Assembly (NCBI GenBank): GCA_903922535.1
Contig: CAIXUF010000899.1
Location: 1-13,849 of the forward strand
Length of the DNA stretch: 13,849 nt
Source: Candidatus Hydrogenedentota bacterium
GTDB taxonomy: Bacteria; Hydrogenedentota; Hydrogenedentia; Hydrogenedentiales; CAITNO01
Direction of reading: 5' to 3'
Below the pieces are notes generated by a model. The model was not told the DNA's origin and did no database searches. It saw only the letters and a list, made by a program, of their open reading frames with translations. Every line of letters begins with the position of its first letter. Within the stretch, counting starts at the first letter, position 1. A program made the position numbers and the translations under genes. Below are positions 2,434 through 13,849 of this stretch, one piece after another.

Positions 2434-2465
2434 TGCGGAACCCCGGCGCACTCTCGCCAAGTGCT

Positions 2466-3509
2466 TCATTTCAGCCCGAGCCGAACGGCCACATCCTCAT
2501 AGTCGGCATCTTCGGCGTAGAGCGTCTCCAGATCTTTTCGCGCGCGGCCCTGCTGCCCCAGCCCGTCATAGACCAATGCCCGTTCGTAACGCAGGGCGCG
2601 CACCAGTTCAGGCGCATATTTCTTGGTCTTCTTCAGCGCCGCTAACAGCGTCTCCCGGGCGGCGTCCGGCAGGCCGAGCGTGCGCATGGCACGGGCGCGG
2701 TAGAGCAGCAGCGCGGCGTGCAGGGGGGAATCGTTTGTGACGGAGTCCGTGAGATTTAGTATCTGGCGGTTCGTGTCTTTGTCGTTCGTGCGGGCATCCA
2801 TGTAGAGTTCGACCAGGGACAGTGTCACCACGGGGTCTTTGGCGTCCACTTCCCACAGCCGCTTGAGACAGGCGATGGCTTCGGCCCACTTTTTCAAGCG
2901 TTGCAGCACCTCCACGTAGGCCAGACCGGCCCCGCGAATGTCCGGGTGCAGCGGCACCGTCATTTCTTTGGTGATGGAAAAGGTCAGGTTTACCGCGATG
3001 CCGTACTTGTTGAAGTAGGTGCCCAACTGGTTTGCGCCGATGAATGCCGTTTGGAGGAATCCTTCCGCGGCGTTCAGGTCTCCCTTGTTGATGGCAATCA
3101 CCCCCGCGACGAAGGCGGCATCGGGAAGATGGGCCGCCTGCTGCAAATGCGCCAGTGCGGTGTCTGAATTGCCTGCCACGAAGTCGTGCATGCCGTCCAC
3201 CAGTGCCTGTTCTTCCGCCGGAACCACCAAGCGCTTGAAGAACCCCAAGGTCAGTTTATCTTCCGGGTTGGGCGCGGGCAGGGGCGGGGGGACCGACGAT
3301 GCTGCGTGCCGAACCGACGCCTTGGGCGTGTGGGAAGTCTCTGTGTAGTAGAGCCCGGTGCCGGGGATGCCCACGGTGGTGCGGACGCCGCGCGGGCCCA
3401 CGGTGAATTTCGCGCCCCGTGGCCCCGCCGAGAAGGACATGCCGGATTTGCTGAAATTCAGGGAAAGCCCCGGCGCAATCTTGACCCGCCGAAAGAACCG
3501 AAAACCCAT
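2466..3509 (-). CDS. DUF4236 domain protein with TPR-like repeats
   Basis: A 347-residue protein of unknown function. Residues 1-56 match the DUF4236 pattern: MGFRFFRRVKIAPGLSLNFS followed by glycine-rich strands (GPRGAKFTVGPRG, GIPGTGLYY). A proline-rich linker (73-81) follows, then about 240 helical residues with TPR-like pairs, for example DTALAHLQQAAHLPDAAF, DLNAAEGFLQTAF, KWAEAIACLKRLWE and GRARKDLETLYAEDADYEDV. The frame is open for 25 more codons upstream, but those codons run through a dispersed hairpin repeat (the GRHSCLP stretch), and only the ATG at 3509 has a good ribosome site (GGGAGGT). I therefore chose this start. There is no signal peptide or obvious transmembrane segment. 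The gene converges on the restriction-modification gene, with 32 bp between the stops and no clear terminator. The TPR part suggests a scaffolding or protein-binding role, which is inference. Confidence 0.85.
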   Translation of the reverse strand: MGFRFFRRVKIAPGLSLNFSKSGMSFSAGPRGAKFTVGPRGVRTTVGIPGTGLYYTETSHTPKASVRHAASSVPPPLPAPNPEDKLTLGFFKRLVVPAEEQALVDGMHDFVAGNSDTALAHLQQAAHLPDAAFVAGVIAINKGDLNAAEGFLQTAFIGANQLGTYFNKYGIAVNLTFSITKEMTVPLHPDIRGAGLAYVEVLQRLKKWAEAIACLKRLWEVDAKDPVVTLSLVELYMDARTNDKDTNRQILNLTDSVTNDSPLHAALLLYRARAMRTLGLPDAARETLLAALKKTKKYAPELVRALRYERALVYDGLGQQGRARKDLETLYAEDADYEDVAVRLGLK

Positions 3510-3515
3510 GGCAAT

Positions 3516-3522
3516 ACCTCCC
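3516..3522 (-). promoter_or_regulatory. Shine-Dalgarno site of the DUF4236 gene
   Basis: On the minus strand GGGAGGT lies 6 nt before the ATG at 3509. It decides the start of the DUF4236 gene against the longer open frame, whose extra codons come from repeat sequence. Confidence 0.7.
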
Positions 3523-3558
3523 AGGAATGAGAATTCAGAAGACAGAAGACAGAAAAAC

Positions 3559-3578
3559 GGCAGACAAGAATGTCTGCC
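3559..3578. repeat. Perfect hairpin repeat, GGCAGACA-AGAA-TGTCTGCC
   Basis: This is a perfect inverted repeat with 8-bp arms and a 4-base loop, followed by CCAC. A degenerate copy sits about 230 bp to the right at 3787-3812. It lies about 50 bp upstream of the DUF4236 start and would form a strong hairpin in that gene's leader RNA if transcription starts further out. There is no T-run, so it is not an obvious intrinsic terminator. The translated form (GRHSCLP / GRQECLPH) is familiar to me from spurious proteins of PVC-type genomes, which suggests a dispersed REP-like element. Confidence 0.65.
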
Positions 3579-3688
3579 CCACATTAGTACGTGTCAACTT
3601 ATCGCCTGGACGAGACAATAGAAGAGTCAGAAAAGAAAGACGCTTAACCACGGAACTCCTGGAGCAGCAGAGCCGCAACCAAAAAGAA

Positions 3689-3723
3689 GGGTCTAGGGTC
3701 TAGGGTCTGGGGTCTTGGGTCTA
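3689..3723. repeat. Tandem heptamer array, 5 x GGGTCTN
   Basis: Five consecutive 7-bp units: GGGTCTA, GGGTCTA, GGGTCTG, GGGTCTT, GGGTCTA. One base varies between units. It is a short non-coding tandem repeat; because the unit is not a multiple of three bases it would shift frame on expansion. Confidence 0.85.
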
Positions 3724-3786
3724 GGAGGGCATAGAATGAGCCGGGTGAGGCAATTATTCCTGCTGATTTGCGTTCATTACGAGAAA

Positions 3787-3812
3787 GGCGGACAGAAGAA
3801 TTCTGCCCCCAC
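3787..3812. repeat. Degenerate second copy of the GGCAGACA-type hairpin
   Basis: GGCGGACAGAAGAATTCTGCCCCCAC resembles the element at 3559-3582 in order and sequence: GGC(G)GACA, AGAA, TTCTG/TGTCTG, then GCCCC(C)AC. The inner stem is CAGAA/TTCTG around GAA (3793-3805), with interrupted pairing outside it. It is weaker than the first copy, as expected for an ageing repeat. Confidence 0.5.
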
Positions 3813-3868
3813 GCTGCACGAAATGATCGCAGTTTGCGACGATTCTGAGACATAGTAGTACGGAAAAC

Positions 3869-3900
3869 GACAGAGAACGGATTATTGACCGCAGAGATCG
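3869..3900. repeat. Dispersed repeat, copy 1 (GACAGAGAACGG...GCAGAGATCG)
   Basis: It begins GACAGAGAACGG and runs through a short variable stretch to ACCGCAGAGATCG. The same order of blocks recurs at 4213-4245, sharing the first 12 bases and most of the rest. No coding role is apparent. Confidence 0.45.
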
Positions 3901-4212
3901 CAAAGAACGCATAGAAGAGAAAAGCCCTTTACCATGACCATAACGTATTCCTTGACATAGAAAAAGGCCCCAACTTCCAGCCAGTTCCCATTACTATTGG
4001 GGTGGAGTCCAGAAGGGACCTTTCTCAAAAGGGATTATACCGGTGGTTTCATGAAAATGTCAACGGCCCGGAGCCAGGGGACGCGGAAAACAGAGGATCT
4101 GGCATGGTTCGTTATCTTGTTTGCACAGAACGACTTGCAGACGGGGTGTCATGAACCTTTTCGACAGAATGCACGAAGTTGACGGACAGTTGCACGGATC
4201 GACACGGAAGAA

Positions 4213-4245
4213 GACAGAGAACGGGTCATGGAACCACAAAGATCG
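4213..4245. repeat. Dispersed repeat, copy 2 (GACAGAGAACGG...ACAAAGATCG)
   Basis: This is the second copy of the element at 3869-3900: an identical GACAGAGAACGG start, a variable middle with a one-base length difference, then ACCACAAAGATCG in place of ACCGCAGAGATCG. The two copies are in the same orientation, about 340 bp apart. Confidence 0.45.
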
Positions 4246-4341
4246 AGTCCGGCACCGACTTTGGCATAGAATCAACAGGGGAAGATGATGGGTTGGCGTG
4301 GGGCAAATCGCAGTTATGGTGTTCGAAATCCCACGAAAAAA

Positions 4342-4371
4342 TTGATTTTCGCACTGAAAAAGGCGTAATAT
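4342..4371 (+). promoter_or_regulatory. Candidate sigma-70-type promoter of the HTH-EIIA/Ehr operon
   Basis: TTGATT (4342-4347) and TAATAT (4366-4371) are separated by 18 bp. Each matches 4 of 6 consensus bases. It sits in an AT-rich patch within otherwise GC-richer DNA, about 50 bp before the first gene of the operon. No better candidate is visible between here and the start codon. Transcription would start at about 4378, inside the first arm of the leader hairpin or just before it. Confidence 0.4.
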
Positions 4372-4373
4372 TC

Positions 4374-4396
4374 TCTCGGAGGGGCGCATTCCGAGA
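4374..4396 (+). promoter_or_regulatory. Leader inverted repeat, TCTCGGA/TCCGAGA
   Basis: A perfect 7-bp inverted repeat around a 9-base loop (GGGGCGCAT) lies immediately after the candidate -10 box. The core of the right arm, CCGAGA, is repeated at 4409-4414, five bases before the ATG at 4420. The left arm could therefore pair with either copy. It could be a protein operator at the transcription start or an RNA element affecting translation. The function is inference. Confidence 0.4.
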
Positions 4397-4419
4397 AATT
4401 TGAGACTGCCGAGAGCCAT

Positions 4420-5112
4420 ATGCAACTTAAGATCCGAGAAGTCGCCGCCCTGCTGGGCGTTTCTGATAAGACCGTCTATCGCTGGATTAAGGCTGGCGCT
4501 ATTCCCGCCTACCGCGTCCACGACCAGTACCGTGTGAACCGCATGGAACTGCTGGAGTGGGTCACTTCACAGAAGATGCCCGTCTCGGAGGAGATCTTCA
4601 ACGAGCCGGCCGAGTCCGAGGAGACGGTGAGCCTTGCCCGCGCCCTTGACGCGGGCGGGGTGTTCTACCGGGTGGAGGGGACCGACACGCCGTCGGTGCT
4701 TCGGGCCATTGTGGACACGATGCGGCTGCCGGAGGGGGTGGACCGTGAGTTTCTTTTCCGGGTGCTGCTGAGCCGGGAAAAGGTGTGCTCGACGGCGATT
4801 GGCGGGGGGGTGGCCATTCCCCATCCGCGCAACCCCATCGTGCTGCATGTGACCCAGCCCTCTATCACCCTGTGTTTCCTGGAACATCCCGTTGAGTTTG
4901 GCGCGATGGACGGCCAGCCGGTGCAGGCGCTGTTCACGCTGGTCAGTCCGATGGTGCGCCACCATCTTCAACTGTTGTCGCGCCTCAGCTTTGCGCTGCA
5001 TGACGCGGGCTTCAAATCCGTCATAACCCATCCGGGCACACGCGAGGTAATCCTCGGCGAAGCCCGCAGGCTGGACCGTCTGCTCGATGAGCGGAACCGG
5101 GTCCTCGCCTGA
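4420..5112 (+). CDS. Excisionase-type HTH protein with PTS EIIA (PtsN-like) domain
   Basis: A 230-residue two-domain protein, probably a regulator. Residues 1-48 form an excisionase/MerR-type winged HTH (KIREVAALLGVSDKTVYRWIKAGAIPAYRV, then a short wing and MELLEWV). Residues about 68-228 form a PTS EIIA type-2 domain of the fructose/nitrogen (PtsN) class. The phosphorylatable histidine is H135 in GGGVAIPHPRNP, matching the family motif around PtsN His73. No transporter EIIB/EIIC or HPr lies nearby, so a regulatory rather than transport role is likely. The gene ends 18 nt before the HyfB-like gene and runs in the same direction, so it is probably cotranscribed and may couple PTS phosphorylation or metabolic state to the complex (inference). 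The ribosome site is weak (GAGAG, 4411-4415). Domain calls are firm; the regulatory target is unknown. Confidence 0.88.
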   Translation: MQLKIREVAALLGVSDKTVYRWIKAGAIPAYRVHDQYRVNRMELLEWVTSQKMPVSEEIFNEPAESEETVSLARALDAGGVFYRVEGTDTPSVLRAIVDTMRLPEGVDREFLFRVLLSREKVCSTAIGGGVAIPHPRNPIVLHVTQPSITLCFLEHPVEFGAMDGQPVQALFTLVSPMVRHHLQLLSRLSFALHDAGFKSVITHPGTREVILGEARRLDRLLDERNRVLA

Positions 5113-5130
5113 TAGGACACCCGAGCAGTA

Positions 5131-7121
5131 ATGTCGTTGATAGTTGCATCCCTGGCCGTGTTCGCGGTCGCCGCCCTGTTTGCGGCGCTTCCGGCGCACC
5201 GGCCTGTCTGGTGCGTTCGTGGGGGCATTTTCGGCGCCTGCCTGGGCGGGGTGCTGGGTCTCTTGGGCGCGGTGCAGGGGCTGTTCGGCGGGGCCATTGA
5301 ATCGTGGCGCATTCCCTGGTCGATTCCCGGCGGCGAACTTCATCTGGCCATGGATCCGCTCTCGGCGTTCTTTCTGCTGCCGATTACGGGGCTGGGCCTG
5401 CTGGGCGCGGTGTACGGCGCGGGTTACCAGCGCGGCGGCGACGAAAAGAAACTGGGGGTGGGCTGGTTCAACTACAACCTGCTGCTGGCCAGCATGGTGA
5501 CCGTGGTCACGGCGCGCAACGCAATCCTCTTTCTCATTGCGTGGGAGGTCATGGCGCTGTCCTCGTTCTTCCTCGTGACGCACGAGCACGACAAGCCCCA
5601 TGTGCGCACGGCCGGCTGGATCTATATGGTGGCGACCCATTGGGCACGGCGTTTCTGCTGGCGCTGTTTGTGATTCTCGGCGAGAAGGCGGGCTCCTACG
5701 AGTTCTCCGCCTTCGCCAAGGTGGGTGGCACGCTGTCCCCGGTGCTGGCCATGGTGGCCTTCTTCTTTGCGCTGATCGGCTTTGGCACCAAGGCGGGGTT
5801 TATTCCACTTCATGTGTGGCTGCCCGAGGCGCATCCCGCGGCACCGAGCCATGTGTCCGCGCTCATGTCGGGCGTGATGATCAAGACGGGCATTTACGGC
5901 CTGATACGGCTGCTGGCCTGCCTGGGCGCACCGCCCGCGTGGTGGGGGGGCTGCCTGCTGGCGGTGGGGCTGATGTCGGGCATCATGGGCGTGCTGCTGG
6001 CGCTGGCCCAGCATGACATCAAGCGGCTGCTTGCCTATCACAGTGTCGAGAACATCGGCATCATCGCGCTGGGGCTGGGCGTGGGCTATCTCGGCCTGAG
6101 CCACGGTTCCACGACGATGGCCGTGATGGGCTTTGCCGGGGCGCTGCTGCATGTGCTCAATCATGCGATCTTCAAGGGGCTGCTGTTCCTTGGGGCGGGT
6201 TCGGTGCTGCACGGCACGGGCATGGGCGACATTGACCACCTGGGCGGGCTGTACAAGCGCATGCCCTGGACGGGCACCACCTTTCTCATCGGCGCGGCGG
6301 CCATCAGCGGGCTTCCGCCGCTCAACGGATTTGTGAGCGAGTTTCTCATCTACTTCGGCGCGTTCAGCGGCGTTGTTTCCGCGCCTGCCGTCGTGGTGGT
6401 TTCGGGACTGGCGGTCATCGTTGGGCTGGCGCTGATCGGCGGCCTTGCGGCCGCGTGCTTCGCCAAGGCCTTCGGCATCATCTTCCTGGGCGAGCCGCGC
6501 AGCGACCACGCCCGGCACGCGCATGAGGCCAACGGCCTGATGCGGGGGCCGATGGTTGCGCTGGCGGCCTGCTGCGTGCTCATCGGATTTCTCGCACCGC
6601 TGGCGGTGCGCGCCGTGATGCCCGCCGTGGGCATGCTCATGCCCCACTCCTCCTCCACCATGCTGAACGCGGACATTGCCCCGGTCCTGGCCCCCTTGGG
6701 CTGGATCAGCGCCGGGTGCGCGGCTTTCGCCTTGCTGGTGGCGTTGTTGGCGTTGCTGCGCATACGGTTGCTTGCAGGCCGCACCACGGGGGAAACGGGC
6801 ACGTGGGACTGCGGCTATGCCCAGCCCACGGCGCGCATGCAGTACACGGCGTCGTCCTTCGCACAGCCGCTTTTGGCCGTGTTCGCGGGTCTTTTGGGCA
6901 CGCGCAACATGGGCGCGAAGCCGCAGGGGGCTTTTCCAAAAGCCGCGTCCTTTGCGTCGGAGACCCCTGATCCGTTCCGCCGCTGCTTCTATGACCCGCT
7001 GTTCACGCGCACGCTCGGACTGCTGGCCCATCTGCGCGGGGCGCAGCATGGCCGCGTCCAGATGTATGTGCTCTATGTCGCGCTCACGCTGATCGCTTTC
7101 CTGATATTCAGTCTCGGATAA
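5131..7121 (+). CDS. hyfB: HyfB/NuoL-like antiporter subunit of Ehr complex, frameshifted
   Basis: This is a proton- or sodium-translocating antiporter-like membrane subunit. The gene is read in two frames. From the ATG at 5131, 170 codons run to H170 (VATH) and then the frame fails, ending at 5673. The family continues in the next frame from 5640 (LGTAFLLALF) to 7121. Restoring one base after 5640 gives about 663 residues, close to E. coli HyfB. Frame 1 holds the conserved Glu139 (AWEVMALSS). Frame 2 holds GTKAGFIPLHVWLPEAH with the channel lysine, QHDIKRLLAYHSVENIG, NHAIFKGLLFLG, ISGLPPLNGFVSE, and the HyfB-type tail WDCGYAQPTARMQYTASS. Many hydrophobic segments span the protein. Both halves keep full family conservation, so either a one-base sequencing or assembly error or a recent inactivation explains the break. 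The ribosome site is weak. The next gene starts 7 nt after the stop. Confidence 0.88.
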
Positions 7122-7128
7122 CGCACCC

Positions 7129-8040
7129 ATGACGCTGTTTTCCATCATAAACTTCCTGCTCGCGCTGCTTTCCGCACCGCTGCTGCTGGGTGTCATCAAC
7201 CGGACCAAGGCAGTTTTCGCGGGCCGCCGGGGACAGCCGTTGCTTCAGGCCTACTTTGACCTGTGGAAGCTGTTGCACAAGGGCGCGGTGTACAGCCGCA
7301 CCACGACTTGGGTGTTCCGTGCCGGTCCGATGGTCGGGCTCGCCTGCGTGCTTGTTGCGGCGGCCATTACCCCGTTTGGCGGCGCGCGCGCGCTGATGGG
7401 TTTCTCGGGCGATCTGATTCTGCTGGCCTATTTGCTGGGGCTCATGCGGTTCTTCACCGTGCTGGCGGCGCTTGACACCGGCTCCCCCTTTGAGGGCATG
7501 GGCGCCAGCCGCGAGGTGCAGTTCTCCGCGCTGGCCGAACCGGCGCTGCTGCTGGGTTTGGCGGCGGTGGCGCGCACCACGGGTTCGTTCTCCCTCTCCG
7601 TGATGTTCCCGGCGCTGGACGCCGCCGACTGGACGCAGGCCGGTCCGGCGCTGCTGCTGGTGGCCGCGGCGCTGTTTGTCGTGTTTCTGGCCGAGAACGC
7701 GCGCATTCCGGTGGACGACCCGACCACCCATCTTGAACTCACGATGATCCATGAGGTCATGGTGCTCGACCATAGTGGGCCCGATTTTGCGTTTATCCTG
7801 TACGGCGCGGCGTTGAAGCTGTGGGTGCTCGGCGCGTTTCTCGCGGGCATCCTGCTGCCGGTCCGCACCGGGTTTGGTGCGCTCGACACGGGGATTGCGT
7901 GGTGCGCCATGCTGGCGCTTGCCGTGGCGGTTGGTGTGGTGGAGTCCAGCATGGCCCGGCTGCGGCTTTTGCGCGTGCCGCGCCTGCTTGTGGCGGCGGT
8001 GCTGTTGTCCGGTCTGGCCTTTGTGCTGCTGCTGAGGTGA
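7129..8040 (+). CDS. hyfC: HyfC/NuoH-like membrane connector subunit of Ehr complex
   Basis: A 303-residue NuoH-family membrane protein, close in length to E. coli HyfC/HycD. In group 4 complexes and complex I this subunit anchors the peripheral arm and couples its redox chemistry to the antiporter subunits. Conserved stretches include GRRGQPLLQAYFDLWKLLHK (32-51), ALDTGSPFEGMGASRE (114-129), and the acidic ENARIPVDDPTTHLE (189-203) followed by MIHE (206-209). It has about eight hydrophobic segments, starting with the N-terminal helix FSIINFLLALLSAPLLLGV. It starts 7 nt after hyfB and stops 4 nt before hyfE, so translational coupling is likely. No strong Shine-Dalgarno site precedes it. The family call is firm; Hyf-type hydrogenase, formate hydrogenlyase and Ehr cannot be told apart from this subunit alone. 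Confidence 0.92.
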   Translation: MTLFSIINFLLALLSAPLLLGVINRTKAVFAGRRGQPLLQAYFDLWKLLHKGAVYSRTTTWVFRAGPMVGLACVLVAAAITPFGGARALMGFSGDLILLAYLLGLMRFFTVLAALDTGSPFEGMGASREVQFSALAEPALLLGLAAVARTTGSFSLSVMFPALDAADWTQAGPALLLVAAALFVVFLAENARIPVDDPTTHLELTMIHEVMVLDHSGPDFAFILYGAALKLWVLGAFLAGILLPVRTGFGALDTGIAWCAMLALAVAVGVVESSMARLRLLRVPRLLVAAVLLSGLAFVLLLR

Positions 8041-8044
8041 ACGA

Positions 8045-8689
8045 ATGAATCTTCCGATAGACAGCGTGATGCTTGTTCTTGTGGTGACCAACCTGCTGCT
8101 GCTGGGGCTGAGCCAGTTGCGGTCCTGCGTGCATGCCGTGGCCGTCCAGGGTTTTGCCCTTGGCCTGCTGCCGCTGCTCGCCCGCCAGGGCGGGCTGACC
8201 GCGTGGACTGTCCTGCTGGCGCTGGTGACCATCGGGCTGAAAGGCGTGGTCTTCCCGCGGCTGATGCTGTCCGCGCTGCGCGATGCCGATGTGCGCCGTG
8301 AAAAGAAGCCCCATGTGGGGTACACCATGTCGATGCTGGTGGGGTTCATTGCGCTTGCGGGCGCGGCATGGCTGTCCTCGCGGCTGCCTGCCTTTGCCGG
8401 TTCACCGTCCACGCTTGCCGCGCCGGTGTCCTTCTTCATGATCTTCGTGGGCCTGTTCATCATCGTGAGCCGCAACCATGCGGTGAACCAGATCGTGGGC
8501 TATCTCGTGCTGGAAAACGGCATTTACGTTTTCGGGGTGGTGCTGCTGCACGAACTGCCGTTGCTGGTGGAACTGGGCGTGCTGCTGGACGCCTTCGCCG
8601 CGGTGTTTGTGATGGGCGTGGCCGTGTACCACATCAACAGCGAGTTTGACCACATGGACGTGGACCAACTGGACATGCTGAAAGGCTGA
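8045..8689 (+). CDS. hyfE: HyfE-like membrane subunit (NuoK-related) of Ehr complex
   Basis: A 214-residue membrane protein, nearly the length of E. coli HyfE. The C-terminal half is NuoK-like, with RNHAVNQIVGYLVLENGIYV (143-162) including the conserved membrane Glu157. In complex I this Glu belongs to the chain of charged residues linking redox arm and pump. About seven hydrophobic segments are visible. The acidic tail (EFDHMDVDQLDMLKG) should face the cytoplasm. Its Shine-Dalgarno site GAGGTGA overlaps the last codons of hyfC, and the next gene begins 3 nt after the stop. The family call is good; the role is transferred from homologues. Confidence 0.92.
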   Translation: MNLPIDSVMLVLVVTNLLLLGLSQLRSCVHAVAVQGFALGLLPLLARQGGLTAWTVLLALVTIGLKGVVFPRLMLSALRDADVRREKKPHVGYTMSMLVGFIALAGAAWLSSRLPAFAGSPSTLAAPVSFFMIFVGLFIIVSRNHAVNQIVGYLVLENGIYVFGVVLLHELPLLVELGVLLDAFAAVFVMGVAVYHINSEFDHMDVDQLDMLKG

Positions 8690-8692
8690 GTT

Positions 8693-10177
8693 GTGACCCT
8701 TGTTCCCATACTTTTATGGAGCGTGCTGCTGCTGCCGTTGACCGGCGCGGTGCTCAGTCTGGTCTGCCCGTCGGCGCGGGCGGTGATGTGGGCTGTGCGC
8801 GCGGGCGTGTTGATGACGGCGGCCGCCGCGCTGGGCTGCGTCTGGGCGGTGCATGACCGGTCGGTGGTGGAGACGGCCTGGTCCTGGCTGCGCCTGGACG
8901 TGCTGTCGGCGTACCACCTTGCCATAATGATGCTCGTGTTCACGCTCTCGTCGCTGTACCTGCCCGGGTATTTCGACGCGGAGGCAAAGGCCGGCCATTT
9001 CCCGAGGGCAACCGCGCGGCGTTTTGGCGCGCTCTGGTTTGGCGCGCTGGCCGCCATGGGGCTGGTGCTGCTGTCGAACAACATCGGTATTATGTGGGTG
9101 GGCATTGAGGCGACCACGCTGGTGACGGCGTTCCTGATTTGCATCCACCGCTCGCCCGCCTCGCTGGAGGCCATGTGGAAATACCTGATCATCTGCTCGG
9201 TCGGCGTGGCCTTTGCCTTCATGGGCACGCTGCTGGCCGGCGCGGCCGCGGAGCACCTGCACCTGGAGGGGACGCGGATGCTGCTCTGGAGCCGTCTGCG
9301 GGACAACGCCGCACACCTGGATCCCGCGCTGATGAAGGTCGCGTTCCTGTTCCTGCTGGTGGGCTACGGCACCAAGGCGGGCCTGGCGCCCATGCACAGT
9401 TGGCTGCCGGACGCGCACAGCCAGGCCCCCGGGCCGGTTTCGGCGCTGTTCTCCGGATTCATGCTCAACGCGTCGCTGTACTGCATCATGCGCTATCTGC
9501 CGCTGGTGGACGCCGCCACGGGACACACGGGCTGGGGGCCGCGGCTGGTGCTCCTGCTGGGCCTGGTTTCCATCGTTGTCGCCGCCGTCTTTATTCTTTT
9601 TCAGACGGACCTCAAGCGGCTGCTTGCGTACAGCAGTGTCGAGCACATGGGCATCATCGCCGTGGGGCTCGGCCTGGGAGGGCCGGGCATTGTGGCGGCG
9701 CTGTTCCACACATTGAACCATTCGCTGTGCAAGCCGTTGGCCTTTTTCGCGGCGGGCCGTCTCGGCCAAATGTACGGCACCCATGACACGGCCCGGCTTT
9801 CGGGCTGCATGCGCGGCGCGCCCGTGTGGGGCCGCGCGCTCTTCGGCAGCCTGCTTGCGGTGATTGGCGTAGCGCCCTTCGCGGTGTTCATGAGCGAGTT
9901 CATGATCCTGCGCGCCGCGGCGCGCAATGGCGCGTGGTGGACGCTGGGCATCTTTTTGGTGGGCGTGGGCATCGTGTTCATCGGCGTGCTGCGGCAGGCC
10001 ATCAACATGGCCTGGGGCGAGCCCGTTGCCGTGCCGAAACAGGAACAGGCGGGTCCCATTGACAAAGTGATGATTGTCGCCGCACTGGGCGCGCTGCTGG
10101 CTTTGGGCCTGTGTTTTCCCGGTGGGTTGGCGCAAATGCTGGGCCAGGCATCGAGCATCGTGGAGGGGACGCCATGA
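8693..10177 (+). CDS. hyfF: HyfF/NuoN-like antiporter subunit of Ehr complex
   Basis: A 494-residue antiporter-like subunit, the second ion-pumping module of the complex. It has the family landmarks in order: Glu139 in WVGIEATTL (equivalent of NuoM Glu144), K228 and H235 in GTKAGLAPMHSWLPDAH, K308 in DLKRLLAYSSVEHMG, and H343 and K347 in LNHSLCKPLAFF. About fourteen hydrophobic segments are visible. The start is GTG, only 3 nt after the hyfE stop, with AAAGG seven bases upstream. Its last codons overlap the large-subunit start in an ATGA junction (10174-10177). Together with hyfB this gives two antiporter-like subunits; a third (HyfD-like), present in E. coli Hyf, is absent from the window. 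Confidence 0.92.
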   Translation: MTLVPILLWSVLLLPLTGAVLSLVCPSARAVMWAVRAGVLMTAAAALGCVWAVHDRSVVETAWSWLRLDVLSAYHLAIMMLVFTLSSLYLPGYFDAEAKAGHFPRATARRFGALWFGALAAMGLVLLSNNIGIMWVGIEATTLVTAFLICIHRSPASLEAMWKYLIICSVGVAFAFMGTLLAGAAAEHLHLEGTRMLLWSRLRDNAAHLDPALMKVAFLFLLVGYGTKAGLAPMHSWLPDAHSQAPGPVSALFSGFMLNASLYCIMRYLPLVDAATGHTGWGPRLVLLLGLVSIVVAAVFILFQTDLKRLLAYSSVEHMGIIAVGLGLGGPGIVAALFHTLNHSLCKPLAFFAAGRLGQMYGTHDTARLSGCMRGAPVWGRALFGSLLAVIGVAPFAVFMSEFMILRAAARNGAWWTLGIFLVGVGIVFIGVLRQAINMAWGEPVAVPKQEQAGPIDKVMIVAALGALLALGLCFPGGLAQMLGQASSIVEGTP

Positions 10178-11700
10178 GTCCCTGCAAGGACCGGCTGCTG
10201 TTTAACGGTGAGACCGCAGGGCTGGACGACGTCCCCGTGACGGACATGGATGATTTCCGCGAGACCGTGCTGATGACCACGGAGGGCGGCGGGCGTCTGC
10301 TCAGTCTCTTTGGTTGTTCCACGCGGGATGCAAAGACGGTGCGTCTGTATGCGGTGCTGAGCGCCGCCGATTCGGGCGGCTATGCGCTGGTGGCCACGGA
10401 GGTGGCGGAATGGTATCCCGCGCTTACGCCCGAATGTCCGCAGGCCCACTGGTTTGAGCGCGAGATTGCCGAGCAGTGGGGCGTCCGGCCCGAGGGGCAC
10501 CCGTGGCTCAAGCCGGTTCGTTATCATCGATCCTATCGCGCCGGTGCGGACGCATGGGGGCGCGGCCCGGCCGATCCCATTCAGCCGTGTGTGACGGATT
10601 TCTTCGAAGTTGAGGGCGAAGAGGTGCATGAGGTGGCCGTGGGGCCGGTGCATGCCGGGATCATCGAACCCGGCCATTTCCGTTTTCAGTGCCATGGCGA
10701 AAACGTGATGCACCTGGAAATCGCGCTCGGCTACCAGCATCGCGGCATTGAGCGGGCGCTGCCCGGCGGGCCGAATGCGCGGACCGTGCATTTCATGGAA
10801 ACCCTTGCCGGGGACACGACCATCGGCCACACGCTGGCCTATTGCCAGGCGATGGAGTCGCTTGCGGGCGGGGCTGTGTCGGTGCGCGCGGAGGAGATTC
10901 GCGGCATCGCCCTGGAGCTGGAACGGCTGGCGAACCACACGGGCGATCTGGGTGCGTTGGCGGGCGATGTGGGCTATCTGCCGACGGCCTCCTTCTGCGG
11001 AAGGCTGCGCGGCGACTGGCTGAACATGACGGCGATGGCCTGCGGCAGCCGCTTTGGCCGCGGCTGGGTCCGGCCCGGCGGGCTGGGCTTTGACCTGGAC
11101 CCGCTTCGCTGCGGAGATCTGCTTGAACGGGTGGAGAAGTGCTTTCGCGACGTGAAGGGTGCGGTGGAACTGCTTTGGGACACGCCGTCCGTGATGGCCC
11201 GTTTGGAGGAAACCGGCGTGCTGACGCCGGAACTGTGCGAGAGCCTGGGTCTGGTGGGGCCGCCCGCGCGGGCCTGCGGGATCAAGCGCGACGTCCGCTT
11301 TGAATACCCCTCCGGCATCTTCCGGTTTTTCAACATGCCGGTGGCCACGTGGCACACGGGCGACGTGTTTGCCCGGGCCTATGTGCGCTGGGAGGAGATC
11401 AACCATTCCGTCGCGTTCATCCGCGAGCGGCTGTCCAACCTTTCCGCCGGTCCCGCGCGAAACGACCTCGGACCGCTTGCGCCGAATGCTATCACCGTGT
11501 CGCTGGTTGAGGGATGGCGCGGCGAGATCTGCCACACGGTGATCACCGACGGCGAAGGCCGGATTGCGGCGTACAAGGTGGTCGATCCGTCCTTCCACAA
11601 CTGGATGGGGCTGGCGATGGCGCTGCGCGATCAGCAGATTTCCGATTTTCCGCTGTGCAACAAGAGTTTTAACCTGTCCTATTGCGGCCATGACCTCTGA
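10174..11700 (+). CDS. HyfG/NuoCD-like large subunit lacking all Ni-Fe cysteines (Ehr type)
   Basis: A 508-residue fusion of a NuoC (30 kDa) domain (about 25-118, with FEREIAEQWGVRPEGHP) and a NuoD/[NiFe]-hydrogenase large-subunit domain (about 155-508, with NVMHLEIALGYQHRGIE). In true hydrogenases four cysteines hold the Ni-Fe centre: CGIC near the start of the domain and DPCxxC at the end. Here the first motif position reads FMETLAGDTTIGH (207-219), with A212 and T215 in place of the cysteines. The end reads KSFNLSYCGHDL (497-508), with S502 and G505 at the cysteine positions; C504 is displaced by one. The protein ends there, with no tail for a maturation protease to remove. It should not evolve H2 and fits the Ehr group. 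The ATG at 10174, with GGAGGGG at 10162-10168 and an ATGA overlap with hyfF, is preferred to the in-frame GTG at 10111. Confidence 0.93.
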   Translation: MSPCKDRLLFNGETAGLDDVPVTDMDDFRETVLMTTEGGGRLLSLFGCSTRDAKTVRLYAVLSAADSGGYALVATEVAEWYPALTPECPQAHWFEREIAEQWGVRPEGHPWLKPVRYHRSYRAGADAWGRGPADPIQPCVTDFFEVEGEEVHEVAVGPVHAGIIEPGHFRFQCHGENVMHLEIALGYQHRGIERALPGGPNARTVHFMETLAGDTTIGHTLAYCQAMESLAGGAVSVRAEEIRGIALELERLANHTGDLGALAGDVGYLPTASFCGRLRGDWLNMTAMACGSRFGRGWVRPGGLGFDLDPLRCGDLLERVEKCFRDVKGAVELLWDTPSVMARLEETGVLTPELCESLGLVGPPARACGIKRDVRFEYPSGIFRFFNMPVATWHTGDVFARAYVRWEEINHSVAFIRERLSNLSAGPARNDLGPLAPNAITVSLVEGWRGEICHTVITDGEGRIAAYKVVDPSFHNWMGLAMALRDQQISDFPLCNKSFNLSYCGHDL

Positions 11701-11712
11701 GGAGGCGCGTGC

Positions 11713-12474
11713 ATGAGAGCCCTTATTGAACGATTGCGGCAGGGATACCGCACCCACGCCTTTCCCAAGGTTCCGCCCACGCTTTCCGAGCGTTTTCGCG
11801 GCCGTCCCGTCGTGGGCGACGAGGCCTGCAAGGCGGGCTGCAAGGGCTGTGTCAGCGCATGTCCTGCCGAGGCCATTCAGGTCACTGCCCAGCACGCGAG
11901 CATCGACCTAGGCCGGTGCATTTTCTGCGGCGACTGCGTCATGGCCTGTCCCCAGGGGCTGCTGAGCTTCTCACAGGACTACCGGCTGGCTGCGCGCACG
12001 CGCGAGGGGCTTGTTGTTGCCGCGGGAAGGGAAACGGAGTTGTGCGCGGCGCTGGCGCGTGAGACACAGCGGCTGTTCAAGCGCTCGCTGCGCCTGCGCG
12101 AGGTGAGTGCGGGGGGGTGCAATGCCTGTGAGGCCGACACCAACGTGCTGAACACGCTGGTCTTTGATTTGGGGCGCTTCGGGATACAGTTCGTTGCGGC
12201 GCCGCGCCATGCCGATGGATTGTTGATCACGGGGCCTGTGACGGAGAACATGCGGCTCGCGCTGCAAAAGACGTACGATGCGACGCCGTCGCCGAAGATA
12301 GTTATCGCCGTGGGTGCTTGCGCCATCTCCGGGGGCATCTACCGGACCCATCCCGAGGCCGGAACGGGCGCGGACGCGCTGCTGCCCGTGGATCTCTATG
12401 TGCCGGGCTGCCCGCCCCACCCGTATACCATTCTGGACGGGCTGCTGCGTTTGCTGGGGCGCATGCCGGGGTGA
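11713..12474 (+). CDS. 2x[4Fe-4S] ferredoxin fused to NuoB/HyfI-like small subunit (Ehr complex)
   Basis: A 253-residue electron-transfer subunit. Residues about 35-88 form a NuoI/ferredoxin-like domain with two [4Fe-4S] sites: C39, C43, C46, C50-P and C69, C72, C75, C79-P. The first site has a three-residue gap (C-x3-C) where the usual pattern is C-x2-C. Residues about 125-253 are a NuoB/hydrogenase small-subunit domain with the proximal (N2-type) cluster ligands C136 and C139 (GGCNACEAD), C203 (GACAISGG) and C233 (PGCPPHP). Combining NuoI and NuoB roles in one chain gives a direct path from a soluble ferredoxin to the large subunit. It starts 12 nt after the large-subunit stop, with GAGGAGG seven bases before the ATG. 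It is the last gene of the operon. All eight ferredoxin and four small-subunit cysteines are present, so this arm should be redox-active. Confidence 0.93.
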   Translation: MRALIERLRQGYRTHAFPKVPPTLSERFRGRPVVGDEACKAGCKGCVSACPAEAIQVTAQHASIDLGRCIFCGDCVMACPQGLLSFSQDYRLAARTREGLVVAAGRETELCAALARETQRLFKRSLRLREVSAGGCNACEADTNVLNTLVFDLGRFGIQFVAAPRHADGLLITGPVTENMRLALQKTYDATPSPKIVIAVGACAISGGIYRTHPEAGTGADALLPVDLYVPGCPPHPYTILDGLLRLLGRMPG

Positions 12475-12499
12475 AGCGCGGCGACGCCTTAATCGCTTG

Positions 12500-12544
12500 T
12501 ATGGACGATATGGACGGAATGGACGATATGGACTGTATGGACGT
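12500..12544. repeat. Tandem nonamer array, 5 x TATGGACGN
   Basis: Five 9-bp units: TATGGACGA, TATGGACGG, AATGGACGA, TATGGACTG, TATGGACGT. They lie 25 bp after the operon's last stop. Because the unit is a multiple of three bases, all frames stay open through it (MDDMDGMDDMDCMDV in one), but no gene of normal composition contains it. It is a short intergenic tandem repeat. Confidence 0.85.
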
Positions 12545-12607
12545 TGGGGGCGGTGGGGACATTGTGCGGCCTGACCTGGTGGGCGGGAAGAATCAGGTTC
12601 ACGGCGG

Positions 12608-12636
12608 TTGATATTTGGGGCGGGGGTGCCTAAGAT
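12608..12636 (+). promoter_or_regulatory. Candidate sigma-70-type promoter of the aminotransferase-like gene
   Basis: TTGATA (12608-12613, 5 of 6 consensus bases) and TAAGAT (12631-12636, 4 of 6) are separated by 17 bp. They lie about 50 bp before the next start codon, in a spacer separating the gene from the Ehr operon. This supports independent transcription of the downstream gene. Confidence 0.45.
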
Positions 12637-12670
12637 GATGGGGTTTGAACGGACCGCTTTCAACACGATC

Positions 12671-12676
12671 AGGAGG
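12671..12676 (+). promoter_or_regulatory. Shine-Dalgarno site AGGAGG of the aminotransferase-like gene
   Basis: A consensus AGGAGG lies 8 nt before the ATG at 12685. It fixes the start so that the twin-arginine signal is included in the protein. Confidence 0.75.
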
Positions 12677-12684
12677 TCTTTTCC

Positions 12685-13849
12685 ATGCAGCAGTCGCATT
12701 CTTCCGGCAACCATCCCACACGGCGTGATTTTCTTGTGTCCACCGGGGCTGTGGCCGCCGGATTGTCGCTTGCTTCGACGCCGGCTGCGCGGGGCGCGGT
12801 GGAGAAGCTGGCGGTGAGCGGGGGACCCAAGGCGGTGACCGCGCCGCATGAGGAGGCGTGCAAGTGGCCGCGCTATGGCAAGACGGAGGAGAAGGCCATT
12901 GTTGACCTGCTCTACAAGCCGAACTATGACCCGCTGGTCACGCTGGAAAAGGAATGGGCCGAGTTTGTCGGCGTGCCGCACACGAAGGCGCATTACAACG
13001 GCACGAGCGCGCTGGCTGCGATGTTCTTTGCGCTCAACCTGCCGCCGGGCAGCGAGATCATGGTGCCGTCGTACACCTTTTTCGCCACCATTGCGCCGAT
13101 GCGCTTCTTTGGGCTGGTGCCGGTGTTTGTGGACATCAACCCGCGCACGTTGAACTTTGACCTTGAGGATGCGAAGAAGCGGTTGACGAAAAACACGAAG
13201 GCCGTGCTTCCGGTACACTGGATCGGCCTGCCGGCCGACATGGACCACATCAGCGAGTGGGCGAAGGAGCAGGGACTCATTGTGCTCGAAGACTGCGCGC
13301 ATGCGCACGGCGCGAAGCTGAAGGGCAAACGCATGGGTTCGTGGGGCCGCATGGGTATTTTCAGCTACCAGATGAGCAAGCCGCTGCCCGCGATCGAGGG
13401 CGGCATGGGCGTTTATCAGGACGCCAATGACTGGGGCCGCGCCGTGGCGCTGGGCGACTACCAGTTGAAGGGCGTGGACAAGGACAACCCGTACATGAAA
13501 TACGCGGGGTCGGGGCTGGGCATGAAGTTTCGCATGCATCCGATGGCCGCGGCGCTGGCGAGCTGCCAGTTGAAGGGGCTGGACGAGCGCAACGCCGCCG
13601 GGGCGGCCCAGGTGCGGAGGCTAAACGACCGGATCACGCAGTTGCCGGGGCTGTATGAGCAGGGCAGCGGACGCACGGATGTCACGCGGCTGTATTATGC
13701 GTGGAACATGCTGTTTATCGACGAGGCGAAGGCGGGGATGAGCCGGGCCAAAGCGGTCGGGGCGCTCAAGGCGGAGGGTGTGCACGCGGACGCGCGCCAT
13801 TATCAGCCGCAGCATGAGCTGCCGCTGTACGCGGAGGACGAGTGGTGGC
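12685..13849 (+). CDS. Tat-exported DegT/DnrJ/EryC1/StrS-family PLP aminotransferase-like protein (3' partial)
   Basis: 388 codons are visible before the window ends. The protein starts with a twin-arginine signal (RRDFLVSTGAVAAGLSLAS, 13-31), ending near an ARGA-type cleavage region around 34-37. The mature part is a DegT/DnrJ/EryC1/StrS fold-type I PLP protein. It shows HYNGTSAL (101-108, cofactor phosphate loop), PSYTFFATIAPMRFFGLVPV (126-145), VHWIGLPADMD (175-185), D203 in VLEDCAHAHGA (contacts the pyridine nitrogen), and K232 in FSYQMSKPL, the Schiff-base lysine position. Key residues are kept, so it could bind PLP. Cytoplasmic relatives transaminate keto-sugar nucleotides; the substrate of exported members is not known to me. 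The gene has its own candidate promoter and appears unrelated to the upstream operon. The fold and the Tat signal are clear; the reaction is inference. Confidence 0.88.
   Translation, partial: MQQSHSSGNHPTRRDFLVSTGAVAAGLSLASTPAARGAVEKLAVSGGPKAVTAPHEEACKWPRYGKTEEKAIVDLLYKPNYDPLVTLEKEWAEFVGVPHTKAHYNGTSALAAMFFALNLPPGSEIMVPSYTFFATIAPMRFFGLVPVFVDINPRTLNFDLEDAKKRLTKNTKAVLPVHWIGLPADMDHISEWAKEQGLIVLEDCAHAHGAKLKGKRMGSWGRMGIFSYQMSKPLPAIEGGMGVYQDANDWGRAVALGDYQLKGVDKDNPYMKYAGSGLGMKFRMHPMAAALASCQLKGLDERNAAGAAQVRRLNDRITQLPGLYEQGSGRTDVTRLYYAWNMLFIDEAKAGMSRAKAVGALKAEGVHADARHYQPQHELPLYAEDEWW

Follow-up and report, generated by a model that had tools for sequence, protein, structure and literature searches.

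Organization of the ehr operon

The 13,849-nucleotide stretch of DNA described here (Candidatus Hydrogenedentota, contig CAIXUF010000899.1, positions 1 to 13,849; referred to as the window) contains an operon-like run of genes on the forward strand at positions 4420-12474, in which a regulator that joins a helix-turn-helix (HTH) domain to an EIIA domain of the phosphotransferase system (PTS) is followed by ehrA-ehrB-ehrC-ehrD-ehrL-ehrS. The large subunit, EhrL, is homologous to the large subunits of group-4 hydrogenases and to NuoD, and it has lost all four cysteines that would ligate a Ni-Fe site. We are highly confident that the complex is an energy-converting hydrogenase-related (Ehr) complex and not a hydrogenase. 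Ehr complexes with the same ligand loss have already been published, and the window complex belongs to this known family; beyond the preliminary description of the locus, our analysis adds the limits of several supporting marks, a conserved set of pocket residues (E165, C173, C495 and C504), a PTS-type regulator, statistics on candidate partner genes and a fluoride-linked sister branch.

The regulator gene (4420..5112, +) encodes a fusion of an excisionase/MerR-type HTH_17 domain (Pfam, 4e-16) and a PtsN/Fru-type EIIA domain (PTS_EIIA_2, 2.6e-20). It is followed by ehrA, which specifies a HyfB/NuoL-like antiporter subunit in two pieces: an N-terminal part in frame 1 (5131..5639, +), recognized by tblastn of relatives, and a C-terminal part in frame 3 (5640..7121, +), which scores 507.8 bits against the NCBIfam model for hydrogenase 4 subunit B (below its cut-off of 667) and is 90% identical to the corresponding piece of locus L001, from a Hydrogenedentes bin. 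The frame switches at 5639/5640 (region 5637-5642), and tblastn of three related loci (L011, L014 and L028) matches on both sides of it; since both parts remain conserved, the break probably reflects a recent change or an error in sequencing. Next come ehrB (7129..8040, +), encoding a HyfC/NuoH-like membrane subunit (Pfam NADHdh, 2.4e-31), ehrC (8045..8689, +), encoding a HyfE-like membrane subunit with a NuoK-like domain (Oxidored_q2, 5.4e-8; 90.4 bits against the NCBIfam hydrogenase 4 membrane subunit, below the cut-off of 136), and ehrD (8693..10177, +), encoding a HyfF/NuoN-like antiporter subunit (Proton_antipo_M, 4.1e-49). The start of ehrL (10174..11700, +) overlaps the stop of ehrD (10174/10177); the reading frame runs from an ATG at 10174 to a stop ending at 11700 and encodes 508 residues that fuse a 30-kDa to a 49-kDa part. 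An alternative in-frame GTG at 10111 would give a 529-residue protein, yet many relatives have 508 residues. EhrL is 91% identical to the large subunit of L001. The last gene, ehrS (11713..12474, +), fuses a ferredoxin-type domain with two [4Fe-4S] clusters to a NuoB-like domain (Oxidored_q6, 1e-28; Fer4 matches). Antiporter-like, NuoH-like, HyfE-like, NuoB-like and NuoI-like subunits thus all lie within one operon, with the frame break in ehrA. The NCBIfam scan covered the operon apart from the frame-1 piece of ehrA; among its listed matches, none to a hydrogenase, formate hydrogenlyase or NuoD model reached the curated cut-off, and EhrS barely exceeded the one set for a general NuoB model (116.8 bits against 116).

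Loss of the Ni-Fe ligands in EhrL

To place EhrL, we compared it with several samples. The 80 genome loci are the nearest Ehr loci, and the genomes of the first 50 were searched for partner genes; the 120 database proteins are the best 120 of 8,000 scored and include the query itself. The 36 distant Ehr proteins come from 33 genomes that belong to the same phylum as G025, a bin labelled Verrucomicrobia; they are 32-55% identical to the query and represent 36 of 59 listed matches, mostly the weaker ones. For comparison, 29 NuoD references stood for complex I, and 21 hydrogenase references anchored on E. coli HycE and HyfG were chosen for having all four cysteines, so that a count of 21/21 at these positions is not independent evidence.

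The replacement of all four ligand cysteines, claimed from inspection of the sequence, is borne out by alignment with E. coli HycE, HyfG, NuoCD and their relatives: HycE and HyfG have cysteine at each of the four positions, where EhrL has A212, T215, S502 and G505. The former first cysteine motif reads A212-G-D214-T215-T-I-G-H219 (10807..10830, +), and the former second motif, S502-Y503-C504-G505-H506-D507-L508, is followed directly by the stop codon (11677..11697, +). Across the 80 loci, the first position is alanine in 71, serine in four, cysteine in four and valine in one, the second is threonine in 76 and serine in four, and the third and fourth are invariably serine and glycine. NuoD differs again, with D/N/E, S/A/G/N, V/I and E/D at the four positions. 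No ligand cysteine is present in 119 of the 120 database proteins, none of the 120 has a full pair, and none of the 36 distant Ehr proteins has a cysteine at any of the four positions. A CxxC motif is absent from the whole of the query EhrL, so that neither motif position holds an intact pair; such a motif occurs in one of the 120 proteins (P0023) and in the 49-kDa part in two of the 80 loci. An intact arrangement recovered by a different alignment was also considered, and a one-residue shift puts C504 on the second ligand position, which still gives at most one cysteine in four.

The residues that took the place of the ligands are themselves conserved, as S502, Y503, C504, G505 and D507 are each present in 80/80 loci and 120/120 database proteins. 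Moreover, ehrL is under purifying selection: between the window and L001, it has 0.055 nonsynonymous substitutions per site (dN) against 0.70 synonymous (dS), and ehrB (dN 0.046, dS 0.57), ehrC and ehrD behave similarly. The conserved replacements, together with the low dN relative to dS, make the loss of the cysteines more than chance, and the purifying selection rules out that ehrL is a decaying hydrogenase gene or a pseudogene.

Three of the marks cited in the preliminary description are less informative than they appeared. The framework said to be kept around the motifs (F-x-E, H219, D507 and HRGxE) is present in part: D507 and HRGxE are found, whereas the phenylalanine and glutamate are spaced differently (F171...E176). 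D507, H189, R190 and E193 are also common to NuoD and are therefore features of the superfamily and not marks of Ehr. H219, which aligns with His75 of MbhL, is present in 80/80 nearest loci but is histidine in only 12/36 distant Ehr proteins and hence does not characterize the family. Likewise, EhrL does lack a C-terminal extension, stopping where many group-4 hydrogenases extend into a tail, but this is not diagnostic, as 6 of the 21 intact-cysteine references are also tailless.

Phylogenetic placement and annotation

A tree of the large subunits was built without the four motif stretches. EhrL falls into a clade of 21 rows that are all cysteine-less (support 95/82), within which the narrower query clade is supported at 100/99; the published proteins named Ehr were not part of this tree. 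The 21-row clade lies inside a superclade (100/100) that joins the Hyc/Hyf-type hydrogenases at 96/90, and NuoD forms a separate clade (100/100). The query clade is thus free of catalytic hydrogenases, although, with the tree rooted on NuoD, the Ehr superclade as a whole is nested among the group-4 hydrogenases. A tree forcing all intact-cysteine rows into one clade was rejected (approximately unbiased test, p-AU 0.0004), and a single origin of the cysteine-less state was not (p-AU 0.142). Together, the cysteine-less clade and the Ehr-type gene content support the assignment to Ehr in preference to Hyf, Hyc or Ech.

An intact-cysteine protein (L070, 17222-18526) is positioned within the superclade (94/75) and outside the query's clade. 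It is the tailless large subunit of a second operon (12299-19332) beside the Ehr operon of that locus, and this second operon may connect hydrogenases with Ehr.

The warning that automatic annotation would mislead proved apt: relatives carry names such as 'Ni,Fe-hydrogenase III large subunit', 'NADH-quinone oxidoreductase subunit C', 'hydrogenase 4 subunit B' and 'formate hydrogenlyase'. Ehr complexes are widespread, and databases label them as hydrogenase, formate hydrogenlyase or complex I subunits. Published descriptions present Ehr complexes as lacking the Ni-Fe ligands and as being of unknown function (PMC6349859, PMC10284858, PMC12342949, PMC7304191).

Proposed electron path and pocket residues

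In EhrD, E140, K229 and K348 are each present in 72/72 sequences, and the membrane glutamates and lysines of EhrA are conserved nearly without exception; we take these to be the pumping residues known from NuoL/M/N. The eight ferredoxin-type cysteines of EhrS are kept in 71-76 of 76 sequences, and the proximal-cluster ligands C136, C139, C203 and C233 in 74-75 of 76. By the spacing rule given in PMC7684303, the proximal cluster is of the hydrogenase type (C-x2-C) and not of the complex I type with adjacent cysteines.

The pocket that would receive electrons from EhrS retains a glutamate, E165 (10666..10668, +), which aligns with Glu21 of MbhL (6cfw_L). This residue is present in at least 95% of the 80 loci, in 119/120 database proteins (the remaining one has a gap) and in 36/36 distant Ehr proteins; the position is glutamate in Ehr and hydrogenases and glycine in 28/29 NuoD references. 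In published computations, Glu21 of MbhL is a proton donor to the NiFe site (PMC11228991). Three cysteines are invariant in the query's Ehr clade: C173 (10690..10692, +), found in 80/80 loci and 119/120 database proteins (one gap), and C495 (11656..11658, +) and C504, each in 80/80 and 120/120. Hydrogenase and NuoD references almost always lack them, one of the 21 hydrogenase references having a cysteine at position 504. C173 and C504 occur only together among 45 wider Ehr rows, of which 29 have the two and 16 have neither; C495 accompanies the pair in all 29 and is found in 6 of the 16 rows without it. As these rows form clades, the joint presence of C173 and C504 may trace to one ancestral change, but their invariance in sequences as little as 38% identical points to a function of the three cysteines. 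On a Variovorax plasmid (L134), two Ehr operons lie within a few kb of each other (large subunits at 10457-11914 and 21188-22738); one large subunit has C173, C495 and C504 and the other none of the three.

Because E165 is kept while the quinone-site residues of complex I are replaced, and because the archaeal membrane-bound sulfane sulfur reductase (MBS) has no Glu21 equivalent, the Ehr pocket is a third arrangement besides those of complex I and MBS. Tyr87 of complex I (Nqo4 numbering; tyrosine in 29/29 NuoD references) corresponds to G213 in 80/80 Ehr loci, and the His38 column (histidine in 29/29) to I164 in 79/80. As described in PMC7684303, MBS has lost two of the four cysteines and lacks equivalents of Glu21, His38 and Tyr87. 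One competing explanation is that EhrL reduces a membrane quinone, or oxidizes it in the reverse direction, as complex I does; Ehr would then be a ferredoxin:quinone pump whose quinone site differs from that of complex I. Both replaced residues and the hydrogenase-like spacing of the proximal cluster in EhrS speak against this reading, which we consider unlikely.

A thiol site formed by C173, C495 and C504 could alternatively reduce sulfur compounds such as polysulfide or disulfides, in the manner of MBS. The invariance of the new cysteines is consistent with this, as is the precedent of MBS itself, in which NiFe-ligand loss is reported alongside sulfane sulfur reductase activity (PMC7684303). 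Three points speak against it: MBS is described as having a three-cysteine proximal cluster and no Glu21 equivalent, whereas Ehr has four cluster ligands and keeps E165; the two cysteines left in MbsL reportedly play no part in catalysis (PMC7684303); and C173 and C504 are wholly absent from 16 of the 45 wider Ehr rows. We regard sulfur reduction as improbable.

Partner genes

A 2-oxoacid:ferredoxin oxidoreductase (POR_N) match is found in 49 of the 50 Ehr genomes, in 47 of them at E < 1e-40, which makes ferredoxin a candidate for a donor shared by these complexes. Neither formate dehydrogenase nor a quinone looks universal: the alpha subunit of formate dehydrogenase (Fdh-alpha) gives any match in 31/50 genomes, a match over the cut-off in 7/50 and none at all in 19/50, with a best match of only 1e-14 in the closest genome, G001; UbiE/MenG exceeds its cut-off in 36/50 and gives some match in 50/50, the lesser matches saying little. 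These genomes are mostly metagenome-assembled genomes (MAGs), so the 14/50 in which UbiE/MenG over the cut-off is missing, a further point against a quinone acceptor, is an upper bound.

The Fdh-alpha counts bear on formate dehydrogenase as the Ehr partner. Such a partner has been proposed for Margulisbacteria and Saganbacteria (PMC6349859), all Ehr subunits of Geobacter sulfurreducens are reported as more abundant in formate than in hydrogen-containing conditions (PMC7894505), and the Ehr superclade joins the Hyc/Hyf type in our tree. Among the window genes examined, however, there is no formate dehydrogenase and no gene for a HycB-type electron carrier, and the scarcity of Fdh-alpha matches in these MAGs points the same way. 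A general formate dehydrogenase partner for the query's clade is not supported, and we hold this explanation to be very unlikely. The window genes examined likewise include no NADH module (NuoEFG).

The hydrogenase maturase HypD was found in 38/50 Ehr genomes. A second sample comprised 194 genomes from the same phylum as G025. Of these, 54 have an Ehr-type match (E up to 1e-50), which in 27 of the 54 is query-like (E up to 1e-160); HypD over the cut-off is missing in 30 of the 54 and in 11 of the 27. Ehr does not seem to need HypD, which does not imply that the two avoid each other. These counts touch on whether Ehr is a hydrogenase after all, one that makes or uses H2 with unusual Ni-Fe ligands. 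The hydrogenase-type framework of E165, G213 and R449 in EhrL, the nesting of the superclade among group-4 hydrogenases, the suggestion of H2 production from formate in Geobacter (PMC7894505) and the presence of HypD in most of the 50 genomes are all compatible with this. It is nevertheless scarcely credible, as none of the 80 loci or the 120 database proteins has the thiolate pairs, more than half of the Ehr-type genomes lack detected HypD, and Ehr expression in Nitrospira moscoviensis is reported not to rise with H2 (PMC12342949). The range of possible partners is narrowed by genomes that have Ehr but in which a Hyp maturase, a formate dehydrogenase or a marker of the quinone pathway was not detected.

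The HTH-EIIA regulator

A homologue of the HTH_17-EIIA protein lies upstream of ehrA on the same strand in 42 of the 52 loci in which this could be tested (28 of the 80 could not be). Its H135, which we take to be the phospho-acceptor histidine of EIIA, is kept in 44/45 aligned rows, the other row having a gap. Strong homologues at E up to 1e-40, two of which are partial, occur somewhere in 45/50 Ehr genomes, in some (e.g. G032, G044, G049 and G050) on a contig other than that of the Ehr operon, and HPr is found in 46/50. In the 194-genome sample, the regulator (E up to 1e-50) is present in 19/27 query-like Ehr genomes as compared to 2/167 others (Fisher p 4e-18, uncorrected for relatedness) and in 0/27 genomes with only weaker Ehr matches. 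Judged by their coordinates, 17 of the 19 co-occurring regulators share contig and strand with Ehr and lie no more than about 10 kb upstream of it. Our search of the open-access literature found no paper linking PTS EIIA regulators with Ehr.

Flanking genes and features

Clustering of open reading frames (ORFs) over the 80 loci and the window revealed no further enzyme family widely common beside the operon beyond the six subunits and the regulator. High GC content makes antisense ORFs resemble families; the printed examples of the exceptions were antisense, as judged by the example's strand, clusters were not annotated singly, and many loci end at contig edges. The window itself begins with a protein that combines an XamI-type restriction endonuclease (2.6e-91) with an Eco57I-type methylase (6.6e-12) at 49-2433, whose true start may precede the window, followed by a DUF4236 protein with TPR-like repeats on the reverse strand (2466-3584). 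A DegT/DnrJ-type aminotransferase (3.2e-69; 12685-13848), with a twin-arginine signal match below the cut-off, runs off the other end. Tandem repeats of 7-base AGGGTCT units occupy the intergenic region ahead of the regulator (3688-3725), and 18-base units lie just past ehrS (12500-12543). In a contig labelled Methylococcaceae (L040, 8947-11365), EhrL and EhrS occur without ehrA-D on the contig, which is perhaps chimeric; the gene ahead of EhrL there has only a weak acetyltransferase match, below the cut-off.

A fluoride-linked sister branch

A fluoride riboswitch (RF01734) stands directly before a distinct cysteine-less complex in 3/3 loci: a Burkholderia cenocepacia plasmid stretch (L135; riboswitch 4966-5036, complex 5276-12692), L141 (4962-5042 and 5222-13600) and L142 (4932-5011 and 5195-13486). 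The latter two loci are from genomes G014 and G017, which also hold a query-like Ehr. The three large subunits group at 90/58 within the same superclade as Ehr, and among relatives of the L135 protein (the best 120 of 2,149), 119 are without cysteine at each of the four positions and no protein has the complete set. The replacements in this branch, mostly S-G-V/I-G/D and T-I-A/S-G, are unlike those of the window EhrL, the gene order of L141 is B-C-D-L-S-A in contrast to A-B-C-D-L-S in the window, and the riboswitch takes the place of the HTH-EIIA gene. As judged by eye, the small subunits of L141 (10298-11062) and L142 (10566-11330) have lost several Fe-S ligands, with the fourth proximal cysteine changed to asparagine, and the Burkholderia small subunit keeps its Fe-S ligands. 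At the window locus, a fluoride riboswitch or other known RNA element is ruled out by Rfam scans, which gave no match in the window and none upstream of the operon even at E up to 1. Scans of 13 of the 80 Ehr loci at the gathering score showed no riboswitch either, only two tRNAs and one signal recognition particle RNA.

Formate hydrogen lyase has been counted among the common fluoride-riboswitch enzymes and read as formate metabolism (PMC11139923), and is listed with fluoride riboswitches in PMC8004769 as well. Databases give such genes the label 'formate hydrogenlyase' too, which does not fit the three fluoride-linked loci examined. If fluoride-linked 'formate hydrogenlyases' are generally cysteine-less, the published reading as formate metabolism needs revision.

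Proposed mechanism

We propose that Ehr, which is bound to the membrane and related to formate hydrogenlyase and complex I, lost the [NiFe] site and kept the rest of the machine. Electrons, most likely from reduced ferredoxin, would enter the two [4Fe-4S] clusters of EhrS and move through its proximal cluster to the old active-site pocket in EhrL, a wiring suggested by the conserved ligands and by homology. There, Glu165 and C173/C495/C504 would replace the Ni-Fe site, presumably grouped in space, and a proton-coupled reaction on a small acceptor would take place. The resulting changes would drive H+ or Na+ through EhrA and EhrD along their conserved glutamates and lysines, and the linked HTH-EIIA protein probably sets expression according to the phosphorylation state of the PTS relay. 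Taken as a whole, we judge this mechanism somewhat more probable than its negation.

Several points weigh against it. The acceptor, the activity and the ion specificity are proposals only, the C173/C495/C504 triad could be structural, and the MbhL His75 equivalent, H219, is not kept across the clade. POR_N is also found in 10/14 control genomes and is thus weak evidence for a ferredoxin donor, and HypD is commoner with query-like Ehr (16/27 vs 47/167, p 0.003; p 0.04 for all 54). Ten of the 52 testable loci have no regulator gene upstream, although one of these ten (L047) shows a fragment at the locus edge. The frame break in ehrA, if real, means that the window's own copy may not pump. Finally, the completeness of the MAGs is not given, which makes every absence count an upper bound.

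A bolder extension of the proposed mechanism would make Glu165 and C173/C495/C504 a new, non-hydrogenase active site, let a PTS phosphorelay through HTH-EIIA switch the machine on, and treat the wider superclade as ion pumps recruited for ion and energy stress, with one fluoride-responsive branch whose 'formate hydrogenlyase' label is wrong. We offer this combined scenario tentatively, as it is unlikely to hold in full. The defined pocket residues and a linked regulator with a phosphorylation input nonetheless provide testable points for Ehr.

Comparison with known systems

The Ehr complexes described in Geobacter, Nitrospira, Methylacidiphilum, Margulisbacteria and the Candidate Phyla Radiation resemble the window complex in the kind of subunits and in the absence of Ni-Fe ligands. 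NuoL-like, HyfE-like, large and small Ehr subunits are reported in PMC7894505, where the ehr genes of G. sulfurreducens PCA are GSU0739-0745, and the ehrABCDLS naming comes from PMC6688271. The passages on Ehr in these sources make no mention of an HTH-EIIA companion or of the C173/C495/C504 set, both of which are features of the window's complex. A survey of 179 Hydrogenedentota genomes lists [NiFe] groups including 4g, and by a term search the word Ehr is absent from it (PMC11406978).

By sequence and fold, the closest solved relative of EhrL is HycE of the E. coli formate hydrogenlyase (7z0s), and the gene order of the window is like that of hyf, which encodes E. coli hydrogenase-4. HycE and HyfG have all four cysteines and a 32-residue tail, whereas the window EhrL has neither, and no gene for HyfA/HycB, HyfJ or formate dehydrogenase was found in the window. 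The membrane-bound hydrogenase (MBH) and MBS of Pyrococcus share with the window Ehr an Fe-S chain leading to a NuoD/NuoB-like pocket, together with antiporter modules. MBH has a NiFe site, however, and the window Ehr is without all four ligand cysteines; MBS, as described, has two of the four cysteines, a three-cysteine proximal cluster and no Glu21 equivalent, in contrast to the window complex with no ligand cysteine, four cluster ligands and E165. Complex I (NuoCD, NuoB, NuoI, NuoH, NuoL/M/N and NuoK) has the same fold and the same types of membrane subunits as the window Ehr, but its NADH module is missing from the window operon, and its Tyr87 and His38 from EhrL.

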